Part shown: positions 5,425 to 14,562 of the stretch, piece by piece
Position numbering within the stretch: position 1 is the first letter of the stretch
How the letters are laid out: every line of letters begins with the position of its first letter
Assembly (NCBI GenBank): GCA_025774865.1
Contig: JALGZO010000043.1
Span: 1 to 14,892 of the forward strand
Source: a bacterium
GTDB lineage: Bacteria > ARS69
Direction: 5' to 3'
Length of the DNA stretch: 14,892 bases
Translations under genes and position numbers: made by a program
Notes under the pieces: model-generated
Database searches by the model: none
Told to the model about the DNA's origin: nothing
The model's input: the letters and a program-made list of their open reading frames with translations, nothing else

Positions 5425-7920
5425 ATGAAACCGCGTGATCGCTTCGCCCTGATTCTCTGCCTCACCGTCGCGTTTCAGCCCGTATCCGAGGCCCTCGCCC
5501 GGAGGGGGATCGAGCCCTTCACGGCTCTCGGCGTCGGCGAGCCGCTCGCCCGCGTCGATACGTACGCCGTCGCCGAGCTCGATCGGGAGACGTTGATCCG
5601 GGAGGCCGACGCCCGTCAGAAGGAAGGCCACCCGTTCATCTTCGCCGAGCCCATCCCCGTGTCGCTGGGGCCGGCCACGCACGGAACGACGGAGCTCCTC
5701 GACGACGGTGACCGTCTTTGGCGGCTCCGCATCGAAGCCCCGGGCGCGACCGATCTGAACCTGGGCTTCTCGCGCTACCGCTTGCCGCCGGGCGCGACTC
5801 TCTACGTATTCAGCGAGACCCGCGACTACTGGGAGGGACCGTACACGTTTCGGGACAACGCCCCGCACGGCGAGCTCTGGCTTCCGGTCGTTCCCGGTCC
5901 GCGGTCGATCGTCGAGCTGTACGTTCCCGCGTCCGCCGAGTTCGAGCCCGAGCTCGAGATCGGGCAGATCGGCTACGGGTTCCGCGACAAGTTCAATCTG
6001 GAGGCCCCGCTGCGTCAGGGTTTCTGCAACAACGACGTCATCTGTCCGGAATGGGACGCGTGGAACGACGATGAGCAAGCAGCCGCCGTGTATCAGCTGA
6101 ACGGGTTCTGGACTTGCAGCGGTCAGATGGTCATGAACACCGCCGCTGATTTCGCACCTTACTTCCTGACCGCGAGACACTGCGGGATCTCATCCGGGAA
6201 CGATCACACGATGGTCGTGTACTGGAACTACGAGTCCCCGAACTGCGGCGACCTCTGCTGCGGTAATCTCAGTGACAACCAGACCGGTGCGATCTGGCGC
6301 GCCTCCCGTTCGGGCGTGGACTTCTGCCTCGTGGAGCTCGAAGAGGATCCCGATTCGACTTCGAACGTCTACTGGGCCGGCTGGGATCGATCGGGCGTGG
6401 CCCCGATGGGGTGCATCGCGATTCACCATCCGAGCACCGACGAGAAGGCAATCAGCTGGAACGATGATCTTCTGACGACGATGAACAGCTGCATCGGAGG
6501 CGGGTCGCAGACGCACTGGCGCGTGAACAACTGGGAAGACGGTACGACGGAGCCCGGATCTTCCGGCTCGGGAATCTGGGATCCGGTCGGTCATTATCTC
6601 ATCGGCTTTCTCTCGGGCGGACTCGCCTCCTGTACGAACATCAACTACGACTGCTACGGAAAGTTCTCCCTCGCGTGGGACGGAACCTCTGCGACGTCGC
6701 GACTGTCCGACTGGCTCGATCCCGGCAACACCGGCGCGATGACGATCGCCGGATCCTACTCCGGGGTGACGGGGCGCGTGAGCTACGTCGCGAACGGTGG
6801 CACGGACGAGTGCGCGAGCAACCCTTCGAATGAGAACGGGATATGGGAGCCCGGAGAGATCGTCACGATTCCGGTGACCCTTCTCGCAATCGGAAACCAC
6901 ACGAGCATCACGGGCACGCTCTCCACCTCGACGGCCGGAGTCGTGATTCTCGACGACACCGCCACCTGGCCGGACCTCGGCGACGGCCAGTCCGCCGAGT
7001 CGGACGCGCCGCATTTCCAGATCGCGATCGACCCGGGTTTCCCGTGCGGCGAGACGATCGATTTCGACCTGTCGCTGTCGAGCGCCGAGGGCGGTCCCTG
7101 GGCCGAGTCCTTCTCGGGCGAGGTGGGCGGCGAACTCACGCCGATCGGACTCCCCATCGCGATCCCGGACAACTTGCCGGCCGGAGTCGAGAGCCCGCTC
7201 CAGGTGGACGTGGACGAGACGATCCTGGACGTCGAGGTGTACGTGAAGATCACGCACACTCGAGTGGGAGACCTCGTGCTGAAACTGCAGAGCCCCACGG
7301 GCACGACGGTCACGCTTCTGGACCGCCCGATGTATCCGCTGCTTCCGAACGGCTGCGAGGACAACGACATGAAGGTCACGTTCACCGATGCCTTCCCGGC
7401 CAATCTCGATTTCCATTGCGCGGGTAGCACTCCCTGGTACTCGGGCGACGCGAAGCCCATGACTCCGCTGTCGGCGATCGACCTCGAGTCCTCGCTCGGG
7501 ACGTGGAAGCTGATCGTCGAAGACCACGGCGCCGGAGACACCGGCTCGATCGACGAGTGGCGACTGCTCACGACTCCGGTCTTGCGCGAGTGCGAAGTCT
7601 GTCCGGCGTCCACCGGCGCGGACCTCGTGGGTGCATCGGCCAGCGCGTTCGGACTCAGCCAGAACCGACCGAACCCGTTCCAGGATCGGACGACGATCCG
7701 GTTCGAGCTCGTTCGCTCCGCGACCACTTCGATCGAGATCTTCGACGTCACCGGGCGCAACGTCCGCACGCTCGTCGATCGTGCGCTGCCGGCCGGTCCT
7801 CACACGATCGTGTGGGATGGGCGCGATTCCCAGCGGAAGCCCGTGGCCGGCGGCATCTACTTCTACCGGCTCACGAGCGGCGGGCAGACCGAGATCAAAC
7901 GGATGAGCCTGGTGCGGTAG
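5425..7920 (+). CDS. Secreted lysyl-endopeptidase-like serine protease with P-domain and C-terminal sorting domain
   Basis: 831 residues. A signal peptide covers about 1-25 (KPRDR, hydrophobic FALILCLTVAF, then SEALA). Residues 26-195 resemble the prodomain of lysyl-endopeptidase-type proteases. The trypsin-fold catalytic domain covers about 196-445, with H252 in FLTARHCG, D299 in SGVDFCLVELEED and S380 in TEPGSSGSGIWD. It is rich in cysteines (for example C201, C207, C231, C253, C274, C278-279), as in extracellular disulfide-bonded enzymes. A beta-sandwich linker (about 446-570, with NGIWEPGEIV) precedes a proprotein-convertase P-domain (about 572-718; VYVKITHTRVGDLVLKLQSP, then GTWKLIVEDHGAGDTGSIDEW). 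The C-terminal FlgD-Ig/secretion-tail domain covers about 740-831 (NRPNPF, VTGRNVRTLVD, GIYFYRL). The enzyme probably cleaves after lysine outside the cell, but this specificity is a family inference. The start at 5425 is preferred to an in-frame ATG at 5281, because GGGAGA precedes it and the signal peptide begins there. It converges on the cysteine-rich gene with 33 bases between the two stops. Confidence 0.92.
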   Translation: MKPRDRFALILCLTVAFQPVSEALARRGIEPFTALGVGEPLARVDTYAVAELDRETLIREADARQKEGHPFIFAEPIPVSLGPATHGTTELLDDGDRLWRLRIEAPGATDLNLGFSRYRLPPGATLYVFSETRDYWEGPYTFRDNAPHGELWLPVVPGPRSIVELYVPASAEFEPELEIGQIGYGFRDKFNLEAPLRQGFCNNDVICPEWDAWNDDEQAAAVYQLNGFWTCSGQMVMNTAADFAPYFLTARHCGISSGNDHTMVVYWNYESPNCGDLCCGNLSDNQTGAIWRASRSGVDFCLVELEEDPDSTSNVYWAGWDRSGVAPMGCIAIHHPSTDEKAISWNDDLLTTMNSCIGGGSQTHWRVNNWEDGTTEPGSSGSGIWDPVGHYLIGFLSGGLASCTNINYDCYGKFSLAWDGTSATSRLSDWLDPGNTGAMTIAGSYSGVTGRVSYVANGGTDECASNPSNENGIWEPGEIVTIPVTLLAIGNHTSITGTLSTSTAGVVILDDTATWPDLGDGQSAESDAPHFQIAIDPGFPCGETIDFDLSLSSAEGGPWAESFSGEVGGELTPIGLPIAIPDNLPAGVESPLQVDVDETILDVEVYVKITHTRVGDLVLKLQSPTGTTVTLLDRPMYPLLPNGCEDNDMKVTFTDAFPANLDFHCAGSTPWYSGDAKPMTPLSAIDLESSLGTWKLIVEDHGAGDTGSIDEWRLLTTPVLRECEVCPASTGADLVGASASAFGLSQNRPNPFQDRTTIRFELVRSATTSIEIFDVTGRNVRTLVDRALPAGPHTIVWDGRDSQRKPVAGGIYFYRLTSGGQTEIKRMSLVR

Positions 7921-7953: not shown

Positions 7954-8697
7954 TCAGCGCGTCAGAACGATCTTCCGGGTCGTGCGGGTGCCGGCCGCTT
8001 GCAGGTGCAGGAAGTAGATCCCGTTCGGCAGGTCGCGTCCGTCGACGGTGGTCGGAGTCCACCCCATCGTGTAGACGCCCCCGGGCAGTGGGGCGTGCAC
8101 CGGCTCGCCCACGACCCGGCCCGTCACGTCGACGATGCGGATCCGTACGGGGGTGGAAGCCGGGAGCTCCACCCGGTAGTGCACGACGCCGGCGGTGGGA
8201 TTGGGGAAGGGGCCGCGCAGGGTCACCCGCTCGGCGGCGCGATCCGGACCGAGGGCGCTCGTCGCGGTACAGGGGTCCGGTGTGCAGGTCGTGCCGACGC
8301 CCTGCCATTCGCCGTCGCCGAAGATGCAGTCGCTCTGCTCGGCGATCGCGCAGAGATCCCCGAACAGGCAACACGCGCCGAGCGGCGGACACTCGACCGC
8401 TCCGCAGGCGGTGCTGTCGCCCTGGAACACGCCTCCGGCCGCCGCGCACTCGGCCATCTCGAGCTCCTGGCAGGTGTCGTCCGGGAAGCAGCACGCGCCG
8501 AAGGGCGTGTGGCACGGATTGGGATCACAGGTCGTTCCGTCCCCGAGGTACTGGCGGCCGCCCGCCTCGCAGATCTCTCGCGTCGTCTCGATGCAGGTGC
8601 CGGTCGGACTGCAGCAGGCCCCGGTCTGCGCTGCCACCTGAATCGGGGCGGCGAAGGCCAGGACGAGAAGTCCGAGAAGCGAATGGCGTCGGTCCAT
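7954..8697 (-). CDS. Small secreted protein with three six-cysteine GACC modules and a C-terminal sorting domain
   Basis: 247 residues. A signal peptide (about 1-24; DRRH, LLGLLVLAFAAPIQ, AAQ) is followed by three tandem modules of about 41 residues starting at 26, 67 and 107. Each has the pattern GACC-x5-C-x7-C, then a glycine-rich W/Q-x-G-x-G-T-x-C and a closing x-x-x-C. The cysteines are C28/29/35/43/57/62, C69/70/76/84/98/103 and C109/110/116/124/138/143: eighteen in all, an even number that suits three disulfides per module. Residues 155-247 are a FlgD-Ig-like sorting domain (GPFPNPTAG, IVDVTGRVV, NGIYFLHLQ). No catalytic motif is visible. Modules of this look are familiar from secreted proteins of Planctomycetes and Eisenbacteria-like genomes but have no function known to me. 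The start has a perfect AAGGAGG six bases upstream. It faces the protease gene tail to tail and is divergent from the sensor kinase. Roles as a structural, adhesive or inhibitor-like domain are all open. Confidence 0.88.
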   Translation of the reverse strand: MDRRHSLLGLLVLAFAAPIQVAAQTGACCSPTGTCIETTREICEAGGRQYLGDGTTCDPNPCHTPFGACCFPDDTCQELEMAECAAAGGVFQGDSTACGAVECPPLGACCLFGDLCAIAEQSDCIFGDGEWQGVGTTCTPDPCTATSALGPDRAAERVTLRGPFPNPTAGVVHYRVELPASTPVRIRIVDVTGRVVGEPVHAPLPGGVYTMGWTPTTVDGRDLPNGIYFLHLQAAGTRTTRKIVLTR

Positions 8698-8726: not shown

Positions 8727-8788
8727 GCGTGGCGGCCGGCGATCGAGCCGATGTCGTCCTGGACGCATCTGGGGCCGCCGGTGCGAAT

Positions 8789-8805
8789 CCCCCAGTTCGG
8801 GTAGT
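8789..8805 (+). promoter_or_regulatory. 17-base motif, copy 1 (upstream of sensor kinase): candidate response-regulator site
   Basis: CCCCCAGTTCGGGTAGT, identical over 17 bases to the copy at 12634-12650. With the preceding T (8788) the core reads TCCCC-CAGTTC-GGGTA, an imperfect inverted repeat of two five-base arms around six bases. This is the geometry of NarL-type 7-2-7 sites, whose half-site begins TACYY. The motif covers the -35 position of the TGC-TAGGTT extended -10 at 8816-8824 and lies 48 bases before the kinase start. It also sits 91 bases upstream of the divergent cysteine-rich gene, which it could influence. Identity and placement are seen; binding by the neighbouring regulator is inferred. 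Confidence 0.6.
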
Positions 8806-8815
8806 TTTCCCGCCG

Positions 8816-8824
8816 TGCTAGGTT
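8816..8824 (+). promoter_or_regulatory. Candidate extended -10 promoter of the sensor kinase operon
   Basis: TGC-TAGGTT is an extended -10 element. The hexamer TTCGGG at 8796-8801, 17 bases upstream, is the -35 position and falls inside the 17-base motif. A start near 8831 would give a leader of about 23 bases containing GAGGAGG, the Shine-Dalgarno for the ATG at 8854. Confidence 0.4.
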
Positions 8825-8853
8825 GGGCGATGATGAGAGTGAGGAGGTGCTGA

Positions 8854-11800
8854 ATGCTCGAACGGCTCGAGACCGCCCTACCCCGGATTCTGGTGCCGGT
8901 TGCGATCCTCGCGCTCGCCGTCCCCGCGCCCGCCGTCGAGTTCGAACACGCTTCGCTCGAAGACGGCGTCTCGCACGACCGCATCTTCTGCATGCACGAG
9001 GACCGGCAGGGCTTCCTCTGGGTCGGCACGATGTACGGGCTCTTCCGCTACGACGGGAACGAGTACCGGCCATTTCGCCACGATCCCGAGGATCCCCGGT
9101 CGCTTTCGAACGACGACATCGTATGCCTGGCCGAGGACGACCAGGGGGATCTCTGGATCGGAACGTACGGAGGCGGCGTCAATCGCTGGGACCGTGCCGC
9201 CGGGGTCTTCGAGCGCTTCCCGGCCGACGGACCGGACATCTCGACGCTCTCCAGCGGCATCGTGTGGGACGTCACGGTCGATCGTGACGGCTCCGTATGG
9301 GTCGCGACCGCCGAAGGGCTGGACCGGATCGATCCCGTTTCCGGGCACGTCGCGCACTGGCGCCACGACCCCGACGATCCCGCGAGCCTCGCCAGCATCG
9401 TCGCCCGCGCCGTTCACGTGGATCGGGCGGGTGCGGTGTGGATCGGCACCGGAGGCGGCGGACTGGCGCGCCTGGACCGAGAGAGCGGTGCGCTCGAGCA
9501 CTGGCGCCACGACCCCGACGATCCCGCTTCGCTCGGCCACGACACCGTGACCTCCCTCGACGAGGATCTAAACGGACACCTCTGGGTCGGAACGTACGGC
9601 GGCGGTCTCTCCCGGCTCGATCCGGACACGGGCGAGCTCACTCACTACCGTCACGACCCCCGCGACCCGGCGAGCCGGGCGACGGATTGGGTCAACACGG
9701 TGGTCGAGGACGACGACGTGCTCTGGGTCGGCACCCGCCAGGGTCTCAGCCGTTTCGACCCGGCGACGGGAGAGGTGGAGCGGTTCGTCCATGATCCGGA
9801 CAATCCGACGAGCCTGCGCGGCCAAAACGTCGTGGCGATCCAACCCGACCGGTCGGGCGTCCTCTGGGTGGCAACCTACCGCGGTGGGCTCGATCGCCTC
9901 GTGCCGGGCGGACGGCGCTTCGCACACCACGGCTTCGAATTCTCGGGAGGCCCCGCGCATCGCGACGTGAGCGCGCTGCTCGAGGACCGGAGGGGAACTC
10001 TCTGGATCGGAACGGCCGGCGGGCTCGTCGCCCGGGAGGGAGCGTCGGGGCCGTTTCGCGAGTACGCGGGTGATCCACAGAATCCCGACGCCCTCGGCGG
10101 CCGTCAGGTGCAGGCGATTCTCGAGGATCGCGAAGGGCGCCTCTGGTTCGGGACCACTAACGGGCTCAGCCGCTTCGATCGCGCGAGCGACCGCTTCCGG
10201 ACGTGGAGACACGATCCCGAAGACGACACCACGTTGTCGGCGTCCTGGATAACCGCGCTCGCCGAGGATAGCGACGGCACGCTGTGGGTCGGCACATCGA
10301 ACGGCCTCAACGCATTCGATCCCGCGACCGGCGCGGCCGTGCGCTACCAGCACGACCCCGACGACGATCGGAGCCTCGTCGAGAACACGGTGCTCTCGAT
10401 TCACCCGGACCGAGCCGGCCCCTTGTGGATCGGCACGTACGGAGGGCTCAGCCGTCTCGACCGCGATCGGGGCGGGTTCGAACACTTCCGGCAGAATCCC
10501 GACGACCCCACGAGCCTCAGCAACAACTACGTCTACGCGTTCCGAGAAGCGGCGGACGGCACGCTGTGGCTCGGCACCGGCGGCGGCTTGAACCACCTCC
10601 GGGAGGACGGGACCTTCTCGCACTTCACGGAGCGCGACGGCTTTCCGAGCGCGGTGATCGGGGGAATCCTCGCGGACGAAGAGGGACGCCTCTGGCTCGG
10701 TACCCATCGTGGGCTCTGTCGGTTCGATCCCGCGACGGGGTCGATCGAGACGTTCGGAATCTCCGACGGTCTCCAGAGCAACTTCTTCAATCCCGGCGCG
10801 TATTGCCGCCTGCGAAGCGGTGAGCTCATCTTCGGCGGGATCCACGGCTACCACGCGTTCGATCCATCACGGTGGACGCGGAACGAGCACGTGCCCCCGG
10901 TCGTCCTGACGCGTTTCCGCGGCGCGGGGCCCGCCTCCACGCCCTGGATCGACCTCGCCACGGTCTCCGAGATCGAGCTCGGTCACCGCGAGAGCTTCTT
11001 CACGTTCGAGTACGCCGCGCTCGATTTCCGCGAACCGCATCGGAACCGCTACAGGTACCGTCTCGAGGGCGTCGACCACGACTGGGTGGACGCCGGGACT
11101 TCGAGCTCGGCCACGTACACGAACGTCCCGCCCGGTGACTACACGTTTCGCGTACGAGGCTCCAACGGCGACGGAGTATGGAACGAAGCGGCGGCCTTCA
11201 TCCCCGTCACGATCGTGCCGCCGTTCTGGCGGACGAAGTGGTTCTACGGGGCAATCACCGTCGCCGGTCTGCTCGCTCTCTGGCTCGTACACCAACTCCG
11301 CGTACGCGCGAGAATCCGACGCTTCGCCGAGCTCGAGGAAGCGCGCACGGCCGAGCGGGAGCTCGTCCGCCGCAAGGCCGCGCACGACTTCCACGACGAG
11401 ATCGGTCACCGGCTGACGAAGATCGGCCTCTTCAGTGAAATGGCGAGGCGACGCGCCCCCGCCACGGTCCCCGAGGTCGACGATTACCTCGAGAGGATCG
11501 TCACGGAATCGCATCGACTGTCGGATGACACTCGTGACTTCATCTGGACGCTCGGACGGAGCGGCGACTCGCTTCTCGACGTGGCGAGCCACCTGCGCGA
11601 CTTCGGCGAGGAGCTCTTCGACCGAACGGAGGTGGCGTTCGAGGCCGCAGGCATCACGGACGCCCTGAAGCGAGTGCCGCTGACGATGGACACTCGCCGG
11701 CACATCACGTCCATCTTCAAGGAGGGCATGAACAACGCGCTGCGGCACGCGCACTGCGAGCACGTCACCCTGCGCGTTCGGACTCAGGCTGAGGAGTTCG

Positions 11801-11964
11801 AGATTACCCTCGAGGACGACGGGCGAGGCTACGAACGACCGCCGGGACGTACCGCTAACGGATTGAACAACATGGAGTTGAGGGCGCAGAAGATCGATGG
11901 TACGATTCGATTCGCTTCCCGCCTGGGGAACGGATCCACCATCACTCTGACTCGAAGGGCCTGA
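8854..11964 (+). CDS. Sensor histidine kinase with two-component-regulator propeller (Reg_prop) and Y_Y_Y domains
   Basis: 1036 residues. An N-terminal signal anchor (about 10-27) exports a long sensor region. Thirteen (L/V)W(V/I/F/L)(G/A)T motifs, spaced 41-48 residues from about 55 to 617, plus a degenerate LIFGGIHGYHAFD at 658-670, make 14 blade motifs. That fits two seven-bladed Reg_prop propellers. A Y_Y_Y domain follows (about 710-790; NRYRYRLEGVDHDWV, then TNVPPGDYTFRVRGSN), then one membrane span (about 797-814), a short helix and the HisKA_3 dimerisation helix AAHDFHDEIGHRLTKIGLF with phospho-acceptor H847. The HATPase domain has the N-box FKEGMNNALRHAHC (956-968), DDGRGY (988-993) and NGLNNMELRA near the C-terminus. 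Unlike the Bacteroidetes HTCS proteins it resembles, it carries no fused receiver or AraC domain; these functions lie in the separate response regulator 18 bases downstream. The start has GAGGAGG upstream. The ligand is unknown; glycans are the usual ligand of HTCS relatives. Linkers between blades repeat HDPDDPASL. Confidence 0.94.
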   Translation: MLERLETALPRILVPVAILALAVPAPAVEFEHASLEDGVSHDRIFCMHEDRQGFLWVGTMYGLFRYDGNEYRPFRHDPEDPRSLSNDDIVCLAEDDQGDLWIGTYGGGVNRWDRAAGVFERFPADGPDISTLSSGIVWDVTVDRDGSVWVATAEGLDRIDPVSGHVAHWRHDPDDPASLASIVARAVHVDRAGAVWIGTGGGGLARLDRESGALEHWRHDPDDPASLGHDTVTSLDEDLNGHLWVGTYGGGLSRLDPDTGELTHYRHDPRDPASRATDWVNTVVEDDDVLWVGTRQGLSRFDPATGEVERFVHDPDNPTSLRGQNVVAIQPDRSGVLWVATYRGGLDRLVPGGRRFAHHGFEFSGGPAHRDVSALLEDRRGTLWIGTAGGLVAREGASGPFREYAGDPQNPDALGGRQVQAILEDREGRLWFGTTNGLSRFDRASDRFRTWRHDPEDDTTLSASWITALAEDSDGTLWVGTSNGLNAFDPATGAAVRYQHDPDDDRSLVENTVLSIHPDRAGPLWIGTYGGLSRLDRDRGGFEHFRQNPDDPTSLSNNYVYAFREAADGTLWLGTGGGLNHLREDGTFSHFTERDGFPSAVIGGILADEEGRLWLGTHRGLCRFDPATGSIETFGISDGLQSNFFNPGAYCRLRSGELIFGGIHGYHAFDPSRWTRNEHVPPVVLTRFRGAGPASTPWIDLATVSEIELGHRESFFTFEYAALDFREPHRNRYRYRLEGVDHDWVDAGTSSSATYTNVPPGDYTFRVRGSNGDGVWNEAAAFIPVTIVPPFWRTKWFYGAITVAGLLALWLVHQLRVRARIRRFAELEEARTAERELVRRKAAHDFHDEIGHRLTKIGLFSEMARRRAPATVPEVDDYLERIVTESHRLSDDTRDFIWTLGRSGDSLLDVASHLRDFGEELFDRTEVAFEAAGITDALKRVPLTMDTRRHITSIFKEGMNNALRHAHCEHVTLRVRTQAEEFEITLEDDGRGYERPPGRTANGLNNMELRAQKIDGTIRFASRLGNGSTITLTRRA
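9354..9383 (+). repeat. 30-base direct repeat in propeller coding region, copy 1
   Basis: Thirty bases, from GCACTGGCGCC to GATCCCGC, recur exactly at 9498-9527, 144 bases (48 codons) later. They encode the inter-blade linker HWRHDPDDPA. Exact identity over a linker suggests recent blade duplication or gene conversion. Confidence 0.85.
9498..9527 (+). repeat. 30-base direct repeat in propeller coding region, copy 2
   Basis: Second exact copy of the linker-coding repeat at 9354-9383, one blade period downstream. The linkers before and after (for example at 9070-9100 and 9640-9670) are related in protein sequence but have diverged in DNA. Confidence 0.85.
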
Positions 11965-11982
11965 TCGCGCCCTGGTAATCCG

Positions 11983-12600
11983 ATGATTACCGTTTCCATC
12001 GTCGAAGACGATGACGACATCCGCGAGACTCTCGCTCTTTTGATCGACGGCTCCCACGGATTTCGTTGCGCCAGCCACTTCTGCGACTGCGAGGGCGCGC
12101 TCGCTGCGATCGTCGAGGATCCGCCCGACGTCGTGCTCATGGACATCGAGCTACCCGGTATGTCGGGGATCGAGGGCGCGGCGCGAATCAAAGAGCGCTT
12201 GCCCGACACCGACGTCGTCATGCTGACCATCCACAAAGACGACGATCTCGTGTTCCAGGCCCTCAGCGCCGGCGCGACCGGCTATCTGTTGAAGGACTCG
12301 GGCCCGGAGGCGATTCTCGCCGCCGTCCGCGACGTTCGCGAGGGTGGCGCCCCCATGAGCAGCAACGTCGCGCGGATGATCGTCGGGTCCTTCCGCAAGG
12401 CGTCCGAATCCCCGCTCTCGCCGCGCGAGACCGATGTCCTGGCCCAGCTTTGCAAGGGTCAGAGCTACCGGATGATCGGCGAGACGCTCTTCATCTCCGA
12501 AGACACGGTGCACTTCCACATCAAAAACATTTACAAGAAGCTCTCCGTCCACTCGAAGTCTGCTGCCGTGGCCAAGGCCTTGAAGGACAAGCTCGTCTGA
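11983..12600 (+). CDS. NarL/FixJ-family response regulator (receiver plus LuxR-type HTH)
   Basis: 205 residues. The receiver domain (1-120) has the acidic pocket E8-D9-D10, phospho-acceptor D54 in VVLMDIELPGMSG, T82 in MLTIH, and K104 in GYLLKDSG. The LuxR-type DNA-binding domain (about 144-205) opens LSPRETDVLAQLCKG and contains the recognition region LFISEDTVHFHIKNIYKKLSVHSKSAAVAKAL. The gene starts 18 bases after the sensor kinase, so the two form an operon and almost certainly a cognate pair. Phosphotransfer from H847 of the kinase to D54 is expected. No strong Shine-Dalgarno precedes the ATG, which suggests translation is partly coupled to the kinase. A candidate target is the identical 17-base motif before the kinase and before the next gene. 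The recognition helix wording is of the type seen in FCB-group regulators. Confidence 0.95.
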   Translation: MITVSIVEDDDDIRETLALLIDGSHGFRCASHFCDCEGALAAIVEDPPDVVLMDIELPGMSGIEGAARIKERLPDTDVVMLTIHKDDDLVFQALSAGATGYLLKDSGPEAILAAVRDVREGGAPMSSNVARMIVGSFRKASESPLSPRETDVLAQLCKGQSYRMIGETLFISEDTVHFHIKNIYKKLSVHSKSAAVAKALKDKLV

Positions 12601-12633
12601 CGCTCTCCCGAGTCGCGGCGGCGCCCCCCAAAA

Positions 12634-12650
12634 CCCCCAGTTCGGGTAGT
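12634..12650 (+). promoter_or_regulatory. 17-base motif, copy 2 (upstream of FG-GAP gene): candidate response-regulator site
   Basis: CCCCCAGTTCGGGTAGT, identical to the copy at 8789-8805 and in the same orientation to the downstream gene. It lies 64 bases before the FG-GAP start. With the preceding A (12633) the core is ACCCC-CAGTTC-GGGTA. A poor -10 (TGGAAT, 12663-12668) follows 16 bases after the TTCGGG part of the motif, the same relative place as the better -10 of the kinase promoter. Flanking DNA differs between the two copies, so the shared block looks selected rather than left by a recent duplication. Confidence 0.6.
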
Positions 12651-12714: not shown

Positions 12715-14562
12715 ATGCCCCTTCCGTTCCCGTCCACCCGCGCCGCTGCCGCGACGCTTGTCGCGCTCTGGCTTCTCCCCACCGACGCGGCGGCCCAGAA
12801 CTTCGTCGCCGTCACCGACAGCACGAATCCCATCATCGCCGTCACCGCCGCCGGGTCCTACACGGGCGCCGCGTGGGTGGACGTGGACGACGACGGGCTG
12901 CTCGATTTCTTCGTCGTCCGGCGCCGGCCGATCTTCCGCAACCTCGGCAACGGCAACTTCGAGATCATGAGCGGCGCCCTGAATGGCCAGGGAGCGCAGC
13001 TCGGCACGACGTGGTCCGACTACGACAACGACGGGGACATCGACTGCTTCATGTCCGGATCGGTCACCGCGACGCAGGGATCGCTCCTCTACCGCAATGA
13101 CGGCGGTTTCTCGTTCACGAAGATCACGACCGGCGACATCGGAAACTCGCTCGACAACGCGGGCTGGGGTTGCGCCTGGGCGGACATCGACAACGACTCC
13201 TACACCGACCTCGTGATCGCGGCCGCCAACGGCTTCGGCGGGGTCAATCACGTGAACCGGCTCTTCTACAACAACGCCGACGGAACGTTCTCGTCGATCG
13301 ACACCACCGTCGTCACCGACTCGCTCGACGCCCACACCATTCCCACCTGGTCCGACTACGATCAGGACGGCGACGTGGACCTCTTCATCGGAAGCGGGGA
13401 GATCTCGCAGCTCGATCCCGACAACCTCTTTCGCAACATGACGACCGAGATCGGCGGCGGGGGCTGGGGCTTCGAGCGTATCACGACCGCTCCGATCGCG
13501 ACGGACCTCGTCGACGGTCAGGTCTGGAACTGGATCGACATCGACAACGACGGCGACCTCGACGGATTCCTGACGAACTACAACTTCGCCAAGACGAGCA
13601 ACCTCTACCGCAACGACGGCGGCACCTACGTCGGCATGACCGAATCGGAGGTCGGGACGATCGTCTCGGAGACGGGGGCGGCGCTTGCCAACGTCTGGGG
13701 TGACTTCGACAACGACGGCGATCTCGACTGCTTCGTCACGAACGACGGAGCCGGCAAGAACGACTATTTCTCAAACGACGGAGACGGGACGTTCACCCAG
13801 GACTTGGCCAGCGCCGTAGTCCAGGAGAACGGCCCTCACTACGGCACGACGATCGCCGACTACGACAACGACGGCGACCTCGACCTGTATGTTCACGGCA
13901 CCACCGCGACGAAACGCCTCTACCGAAACGACCTCGCGAACGGCTTCGCCTGGCTCAACGTGAAGCTCGTCGGCGGGGGCGCCGGTGCCTCGAACATCTC
14001 CGCCATCGGGGCGAAGGTGCGCGCGCTCGCGACGATTGACGGCAGCCCGATCTGGCAACTTCGCGAGGTGTCCGCGCAGAACAGCTTCAACTCGATGAAC
14101 ATGCTCAACGTGCACTTCGGTCTCAAAAACGCGACCGTCGTCGACTCTCTCGTGATCGAATGGCCGGCGGGCGGTGTCGAGACTTACACGGACGTGCCGG
14201 TGAACCTCTTCCTCAGGCTGACGGAAGGCACGGACCCCACCGGCGCGGCGGCGGTCTCGACGTCGTCCAGGATCTCATGGCTCCGGCAGAACTCCCCGAA
14301 CCCGTTCCGGCCGCAGACGACCATCGGGTTCGAGGTTCCCTCCGTCGGTAACGTCAGCCTCCGGATCTTCGACACCGCCGGCCGACTCGTCCGTACGCTC
14401 GTCGACGAGCCACGCCCCGCCGGCTCCTACGGGGAGCTGTGGGACGGGCGCAGCGAGTCTGGCCGTCCCGTTGCCGCGGGGGTCTACTTCTATCGACTGC
14501 GAGCCGTAGGACTCAACGGCCGCGGTATCGAGGAATCGCGCAGGATGACGCTCCTGAAGTAG
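12715..14562 (+). CDS. Secreted FG-GAP/VCBS seven-repeat propeller protein with ASPIC/UnbV domain and sorting domain
   Basis: 615 residues. A signal peptide covers about 1-27 (AAAATLVALWLL, then DAAAQ). Seven FG-GAP/VCBS calcium-loop repeats of the form D-x-D-x-D-G-x-x-D begin near residues 56, 102, 157, 214, 275, 330 and 382 (for example DYDNDGDID, DIDNDGDLD), which suits one seven-bladed propeller. The ASPIC/UnbV domain follows (about 412-504; WLNVKLVGG, AIGAKVRALAT, HFGL, VVDSLVIEWPAGG, YTDVPVN). A FlgD-Ig-like sorting domain closes the protein (about 524-615; RQNSPNPFRPQTTIGFEV, DTAGRLVRTLVDE, AGVYFYRL). AGGAGG at 12703-12708 fixes the start. Such proteins are exported or surface-bound and thought to bind ligands or matrix through a calcium-stabilised propeller; no enzymatic activity is assigned. 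It lies 114 bases after the response regulator and has its own copy of the 17-base motif, so it is the likely output gene of the two-component system. Confidence 0.92.
   Translation: MPLPFPSTRAAAATLVALWLLPTDAAAQNFVAVTDSTNPIIAVTAAGSYTGAAWVDVDDDGLLDFFVVRRRPIFRNLGNGNFEIMSGALNGQGAQLGTTWSDYDNDGDIDCFMSGSVTATQGSLLYRNDGGFSFTKITTGDIGNSLDNAGWGCAWADIDNDSYTDLVIAAANGFGGVNHVNRLFYNNADGTFSSIDTTVVTDSLDAHTIPTWSDYDQDGDVDLFIGSGEISQLDPDNLFRNMTTEIGGGGWGFERITTAPIATDLVDGQVWNWIDIDNDGDLDGFLTNYNFAKTSNLYRNDGGTYVGMTESEVGTIVSETGAALANVWGDFDNDGDLDCFVTNDGAGKNDYFSNDGDGTFTQDLASAVVQENGPHYGTTIADYDNDGDLDLYVHGTTATKRLYRNDLANGFAWLNVKLVGGGAGASNISAIGAKVRALATIDGSPIWQLREVSAQNSFNSMNMLNVHFGLKNATVVDSLVIEWPAGGVETYTDVPVNLFLRLTEGTDPTGAAAVSTSSRISWLRQNSPNPFRPQTTIGFEVPSVGNVSLRIFDTAGRLVRTLVDEPRPAGSYGELWDGRSESGRPVAAGVYFYRLRAVGLNGRGIEESRRMTLLK

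Follow-up and report, generated by a model that had tools for sequence, protein, structure and literature searches.

The question raised by this locus is whether two identical short sequences, one ahead of a sensor kinase gene and the other ahead of a gene for an exported protein, are the binding sites of the response regulator that is encoded between them. The window, by which we mean the whole stretch of 14,892 nucleotides that was analysed, contains three adjacent genes on the plus strand. The first (8854-11964) encodes a sensor histidine kinase of 1036 amino acids with Pfam Reg_prop repeats, Y_Y_Y, HisKA_3 and HATPase_c domains and a transmembrane segment, as read from the sequence, and its relatives in the PDB are the HTCS sensor domains 4a2l (E 1.7e-103) and 3v9f. 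The second (11983-12600), a separate open reading frame, encodes a response regulator of 205 amino acids. The proposal in the earlier note that this protein belongs to the NarL/FixJ family is confirmed by matches to Response_reg (PF00072, 9.8e-26) and GerE (PF00196, 1.5e-18), and the phospho-acceptor aspartate D54 is invariant among 14 relatives. The nearest solved structures to its DNA-binding domain include NarL, and its recognition helix, SEDTVHFHIKNIYKKL, was aligned with the helix of NarL. The third gene (12715-14562) encodes a predicted exported FG-GAP/UnbV_ASPIC protein of 615 amino acids, hereafter ASPIC, with the Pfam domains FG-GAP_3, UnbV_ASPIC and FlgD_ig, and with CRTAC1 (9etn, E 4e-8) as the sole match in the PDB. 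The C-terminus is of the T9SS type, with FlgD_ig above its cut-off and CHU_C just below; a Por_Secre_tail is present in several of the orthologues, and SprA of the T9SS is encoded in the same genome (SprA_N, 52.6 bits, above the cut-off).

Exact copies of the 17-base sequence CCCCCAGTTCGGGTAGT were recovered by a search of the window at 8789-8805 and 12634-12650, both on the plus strand, which end 48 bases 5' of the kinase ATG at 8854 and 64 bases 5' of the ASPIC ATG at 12715, just as first described. A third copy was not found in the window at up to three mismatches, again in agreement with the first description. Taken alone, the repeat is only suggestive, because 25 of 300 versions of the window shuffled by dinucleotides also contained an exact direct repeat of at least 17 bases and because the window contains further repeats of such length, all of them within the repeat-rich kinase and ASPIC genes. 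The search with 0-3 mismatches was extended to the whole genome, as had been suggested (4,716,238 bases in 785 contigs, 92.65% complete). The two window copies are the sole matches with 0-2 mismatches, and the matches with three mismatches (n=18) bring the total to 20, as compared to 18 for a reversed-pattern control, which is the control level. All eighteen are most likely located inside genes, since stop-free stretches of 252-852 codons run through them.

We compared the locus to related regions in other genomes: 80 loci with relatives of the regulator, and another 20 from a set of 391 genomes that belong to the same class as L024. The order kinase, regulator, ASPIC was found in L022, L023, L024, L025, L032, L043, L046, L052, L056, L062, L176, L178, L182, L189, L190, L192 and L194, about 17 distant genomes in all, of which L025 and L176 differ very little. 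The ASPIC gene is located 4 kb further on in L039, the regulator and ASPIC genes are present with the kinase gene off the contig in L059, and the cassette is cut by the contig end in L021. The loci numbered below L176 come from records with the labels Eisenbacteria, Gemmatimonadetes, Ignavibacteria, Melioribacteraceae, Bacteroidetes and Deltaproteobacteria, and the assembly that holds the class A locus L024 bears the name Melioribacter roseus. Pairwise distances among the kinases, regulators and ASPIC proteins of 19 cassettes are correlated (Mantel r 0.70, 0.78 and 0.77, with none of 2000 permutations as high). The distribution of the cassette is patchy: neither an orthologue of the regulator (cut-off E 1e-30) nor the site was found in four genomes from the family to which the window belongs (G001-G004), and the regulator was not found at a strict cut-off in five of seven genomes from the phylum of L022. 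In L182, a second, weaker ASPIC-like gene was observed downstream of the cassette, some 3.4 kb beyond the regulator gene.

Two sets of regions, those 5' of the kinase gene (U) and those that follow the regulator gene or precede the ASPIC gene (D), were subjected to an unsupervised motif search, from which three classes of 18-bp dyad emerged, with arms GGTAGT (class A), TGAGAT (class B) and GGTYAT (class C). The class A motif, AACtCCCaGtTc.GGTAG(T), was identified in 16 of 18 regions, the two window sites among them. The class B motif, tATCTCATATATATGAGA(T), was present in every examined U region and in every D region with an ASPIC gene, and was absent at comparable score from D regions without ASPIC, while the class C motif, aTgACCCgTTTGGGTtAT, was found in most regions. 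The comparison of orthologous regions put forward in the earlier note thus revealed paired U and D sites that recur in the relatives, with a sequence that differs by clade. The identity between the two sites of a locus is 18/18 in L182, where AATGACCCGTTCGGGTCA occurs at both promoters, and 17/18 in both the window and L190 (none of 100 shuffles in each of the three cases). A generic test of U/D similarity was not significant for most loci taken singly, because the arms are short. A recognisable upstream site is absent from L056, L062, L189 and some class C kinases, and no site of classes A, B or C was found in L043.

In the window, the predicted sites are 18-bp imperfect dyads on the plus strand: site U in the kinase promoter region (8788-8805, TCCCCC-AGTTCG-GGTAGT) and site D between the regulator and ASPIC genes (12633-12650, ACCCCC-AGTTCG-GGTAGT). 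A position-weight model of class A, trained on sites from other genomes with the window excluded, was used to score both strands of the window. Site D obtained the highest score (24.0 bits) and site U the second highest (18.8 bits), as compared to 11.7 bits for the next unrelated position, which is well beyond chance. Counterparts of site U are located 5' of the kinase genes in L021, L022, L024, L025 and L176, and counterparts of site D before the ASPIC genes in L022-L025, L052, L056, L062 and L176, as well as at the same place after the regulator gene in the truncated L021. A gene for a cysteine-rich protein with a T9SS sorting tail (7954-8697, minus strand) is divergent from the kinase gene, and the two have a common upstream region of 156 bases; site U could act also on this gene.

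Across the related loci, 61 model matches of at least 18 bits fell in U or D regions, as compared to 10 outside (about 570,000 strand-bases). Two of the ten (L049:536-538, both strands) represent the uncaptured kinase promoter of L049, one (L177:9407) is an ASPIC promoter, and four (L184:4432 and L187:4247, both strands) are located just 5' of the regulator gene. The latter correspond to near-perfect class C palindromes between the kinase and regulator genes, ATGACCCGTTTGGGTCAT at L184:4432-4449 and ATGACCCATTTGGGTCAT at L187:4247-4264, and the regulator gene in these two loci may have a controlled promoter of its own. The site signal emerged only once the location of matches with respect to genes was taken into account: a loose dyad, CCC-N-GGTAG, gave no clear excess across all loci, and plain mismatch counts were at the control level (27 versus 29). 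A loose class A pattern was at background level genome-wide in most genomes. We also searched ten class B genomes for the ASPIC-type site of that class. At 0-1 mismatch, 10 of the 11 matches are located directly 5' of an ASPIC orthologue, including those in L203, L204 and L205, where the ASPIC gene does not adjoin the regulator gene; in class B, the prediction that the site follows the ASPIC gene when the genes are apart therefore held. The sole exception, in L206 (G018:C241:933-950), is a perfect ASPIC-type site of class B with no ASPIC gene after it. The kinase-type site of class B occurred as one perfect copy, at the kinase promoter, in four of five genomes.

The three site classes were then considered together with the recognition helix of the regulators, which is TVHFHIKNIY in class A, TVRHHIKNIY in class B and TVRRHIKSIY in class C, or close variants of these. 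The class is marked by residues 177-178, which are HF in class A, RH in class B and RR or RK in class C, and these two changing residues align without gaps with the K and V of NarL TVKVHVKH. In NarL, K188 and V189 contact DNA bases. When groups of related loci were left out of the training, the class predicted by the helix was recovered for all 40 regions in which a clear site was present; later class members had been assigned by helix, and the agreement amounts to about two independent switches, because each site class corresponds to one regulator clade. Column statistics point to residue 178, which is partly circular because later loci were classed by helix, and they were not used as proof. 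Overall similarity alone does not account for the site, since the window kinase is closer to that of L182 in class C (44% identity) than to that of L024 in class A (26%), yet the window site and helix are both of class A.

From the order of the genes, the paired sites, the clade-wise change of site and helix and the fixed distance to the promoter in relatives, we consider it likely that the linked regulator acts on both promoters, most probably as an activator. The cassette, the paired sites, the helix-site change and the promoter spacing also bear out the view of the earlier note that the sites are those of the neighbouring regulator and connect the kinase-regulator operon to the ASPIC gene, with binding as the predicted step. 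The propeller kinase would sense a signal and phosphorylate the NarL/FixJ-type regulator of the adjoining gene. This regulator would then bind, presumably as a dimer, to the 18-bp imperfect dyad, of which one copy precedes the kinase-regulator operon and the other the adjacent ASPIC gene, and binding would activate both promoters. The expected outcome would be positive feedback on the sensor operon together with the production of one FG-GAP/ASPIC surface protein, probably exported by the type IX route. Very few sites were found per genome in the window genome and in the class B genomes, and at up to two mismatches the regulon of the window genome looks like two promoters and one exported protein. 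Of the "one or more" exported proteins originally envisaged, the single ASPIC output is retained for this genome and the suggestion of several is not.

The sign of the regulation was considered from the promoter geometry at 39 sites from all three classes, with the window and the Eisenbacteria loci left out. A -7 box resembling TAnnTTTG starts exactly 22 bases 3' of the right arm in the relatives, with a mean match of 4.51 out of 6 at this spacing, as compared to at most 2.8 at other spacings from 8 to 33 bases, and none of 1000 shuffles was as high. The spacing of 22 bases is alike at the kinase and ASPIC promoters of the relatives. In Bacteroidota, the box for the primary sigma factor has the sequence TAnnTTTG (PMC7366714), and sigma-A boxes span -12 to -5 (PMC9723704). 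In the kinase promoters of L021 and L022, TATGATTG (5/6) is located at 22 bases, and the window promoters have only 2/6 and 3/6 matches at this position, so that the evidence for the spacing comes from the relatives and extends to the window by homology. With the box 22 bases after the right arm, the dyad in the relatives would span about -52 to -35, with its centre at about -43, which would be the position of a class II activator; this placement upstream of the predicted start is the reason for proposing activation of both promoters. Class II activators are usually centred near -43, and NarL-type regulators that work with HisKA_3 kinases are mostly activators.

Alternatively, the linked regulator could bind to the sites and repress the promoters, or repress its own operon while activating the ASPIC gene. 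Autoregulation is common with either sign, and a dyad that ends 22 bases before the -7 box borders the -33 region, as would suit a repressor. However, the same -7 box spacing at the kinase and ASPIC promoters suggests a single mode of action, and both the centre near -43 and the general habit of NarL-type regulators with HisKA_3 partners argue for activation, which makes repression improbable. In class B, the ATG of the kinase gene starts three bases after the -7 box (L027, L032, L039, L046, L177, L178, L179, L192 and L194), which suggests that these kinase mRNAs are leaderless, since the ATG would coincide with the transcription start or differ from it by about one base.

Activation by the linked regulator was also weighed against the idea that the sites bind another regulator of T9SS or surface genes, with the neighbouring two-component pair as a target rather than the source of control. 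Genes with T9SS tails are common near these loci, and a site does not by itself name its binder, but the sites and the recognition helix of the linked regulator change in parallel, and the sites are confined to these promoters in the window genome, and nearly so in class B, where a broad surface regulator would be expected to have more targets. We therefore regard this explanation as slightly less probable still than repression. The arms, with their CCC and GGG, could also pair in a transcribed RNA hairpin, and site D is located directly 3' of the regulator gene, as a leader or terminator element might be. We reject this interpretation as very improbable, because in relatives the element is fixed at 22 bases upstream of the -7 box and thus lies outside the transcript of that promoter, because its sequence changes with the DNA-recognition helix, and because the class B element precedes ASPIC genes on separate contigs. 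A chance repeat in a GC-rich window, of the kind seen in the shuffled windows, has a negligible probability and counts as already refuted, given that precisely these two sites are selected by a model built independently from other genomes and that paired sites occur in homologous promoters.

Activation of both promoters by the linked regulator would place familiar components in a new arrangement. Like the window kinase, the HTCS proteins of Bacteroides, such as the one with the 4a2l sensor, combine a Reg_prop propeller with Y_Y_Y and a histidine kinase, but in HTCS the kinase, receiver and DNA-binding domain are in one polypeptide, and their regulators are of the fused AraC type. The window kinase is of the HisKA_3 type and separate from its regulator, which is of the NarL/FixJ type; instead of a polysaccharide-utilisation locus, a single exported ASPIC protein is the predicted target. 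NarL, the nitrate response regulator of E. coli, has the same receiver and GerE domains and a dyadic site, but the window helix has HF where NarL has KV. The NarL-type site geometry assumed in the earlier note was not upheld: sites of class A are best read as 6-6-6 dyads of 18 bp resembling ACTACC-N6-GGTAGT, and not as the 7-2-7 arrangement of TACYYMT heptamers that is bound by NarL. The window ASPIC protein resembles CRTAC1 and other ASPIC-UnbV proteins in having FG-GAP repeats followed by UnbV_ASPIC, and differs in being bacterial, in its T9SS-type C-terminal domain and in apparently having a two-component circuit of its own. Consistent with the earlier note, no description of a propeller two-component pair with an ASPIC output was found in open-access PMC papers; propeller sensors (HTCS), NarL-type regulators, autoregulation and ASPIC proteins are each already known, and it is their joining that appears to be new.

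The bacterial ASPIC/CRTAC1-like proteins hereby gain a defined candidate regulator and a testable regulon. The loci also provide a natural series with joint changes in the recognition helix of a NarL-type regulator and in the DNA site at both promoters. Such a series is of value in working out the recognition code of a large family in uncultured phyla with few links between regulators and targets. A broader and much more tentative idea, which we consider rather unlikely, is that a loop of one sensor and one effector is found across several phyla and has been passed on whole, by inheritance or transfer, along with the DNA sites that match it. In this reading, the exported CRTAC1-like protein would act outside the cell on the ligand of the kinase, closing the loop between the sensor and its sole output. 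The genes adjoining several class C regulators are not ASPIC genes, and the output may thus vary between clades. Larkinella and relatives have a regulator of the same subfamily (53-55% identity) and a related propeller kinase, but the neighbouring gene, of about 1065 amino acids and by its size probably a SusC-like receptor, is not ASPIC. A related site, CCCCCATTTAAGGGTAG, was observed in Larkinella (L033, about 6753-6775) between the regulator and a gene of about 1050 amino acids, hinting that the regulator subfamily may control other outer-membrane genes elsewhere. Full palindromes were also observed in Polaribacter (L098), ACTACCCATAATAGGTAGT at about 6628 and ACTACCCATTTTAGGTAGT at about 12120, of which the former adjoins a regulator that is paired with a TPR kinase and not with a propeller kinase.
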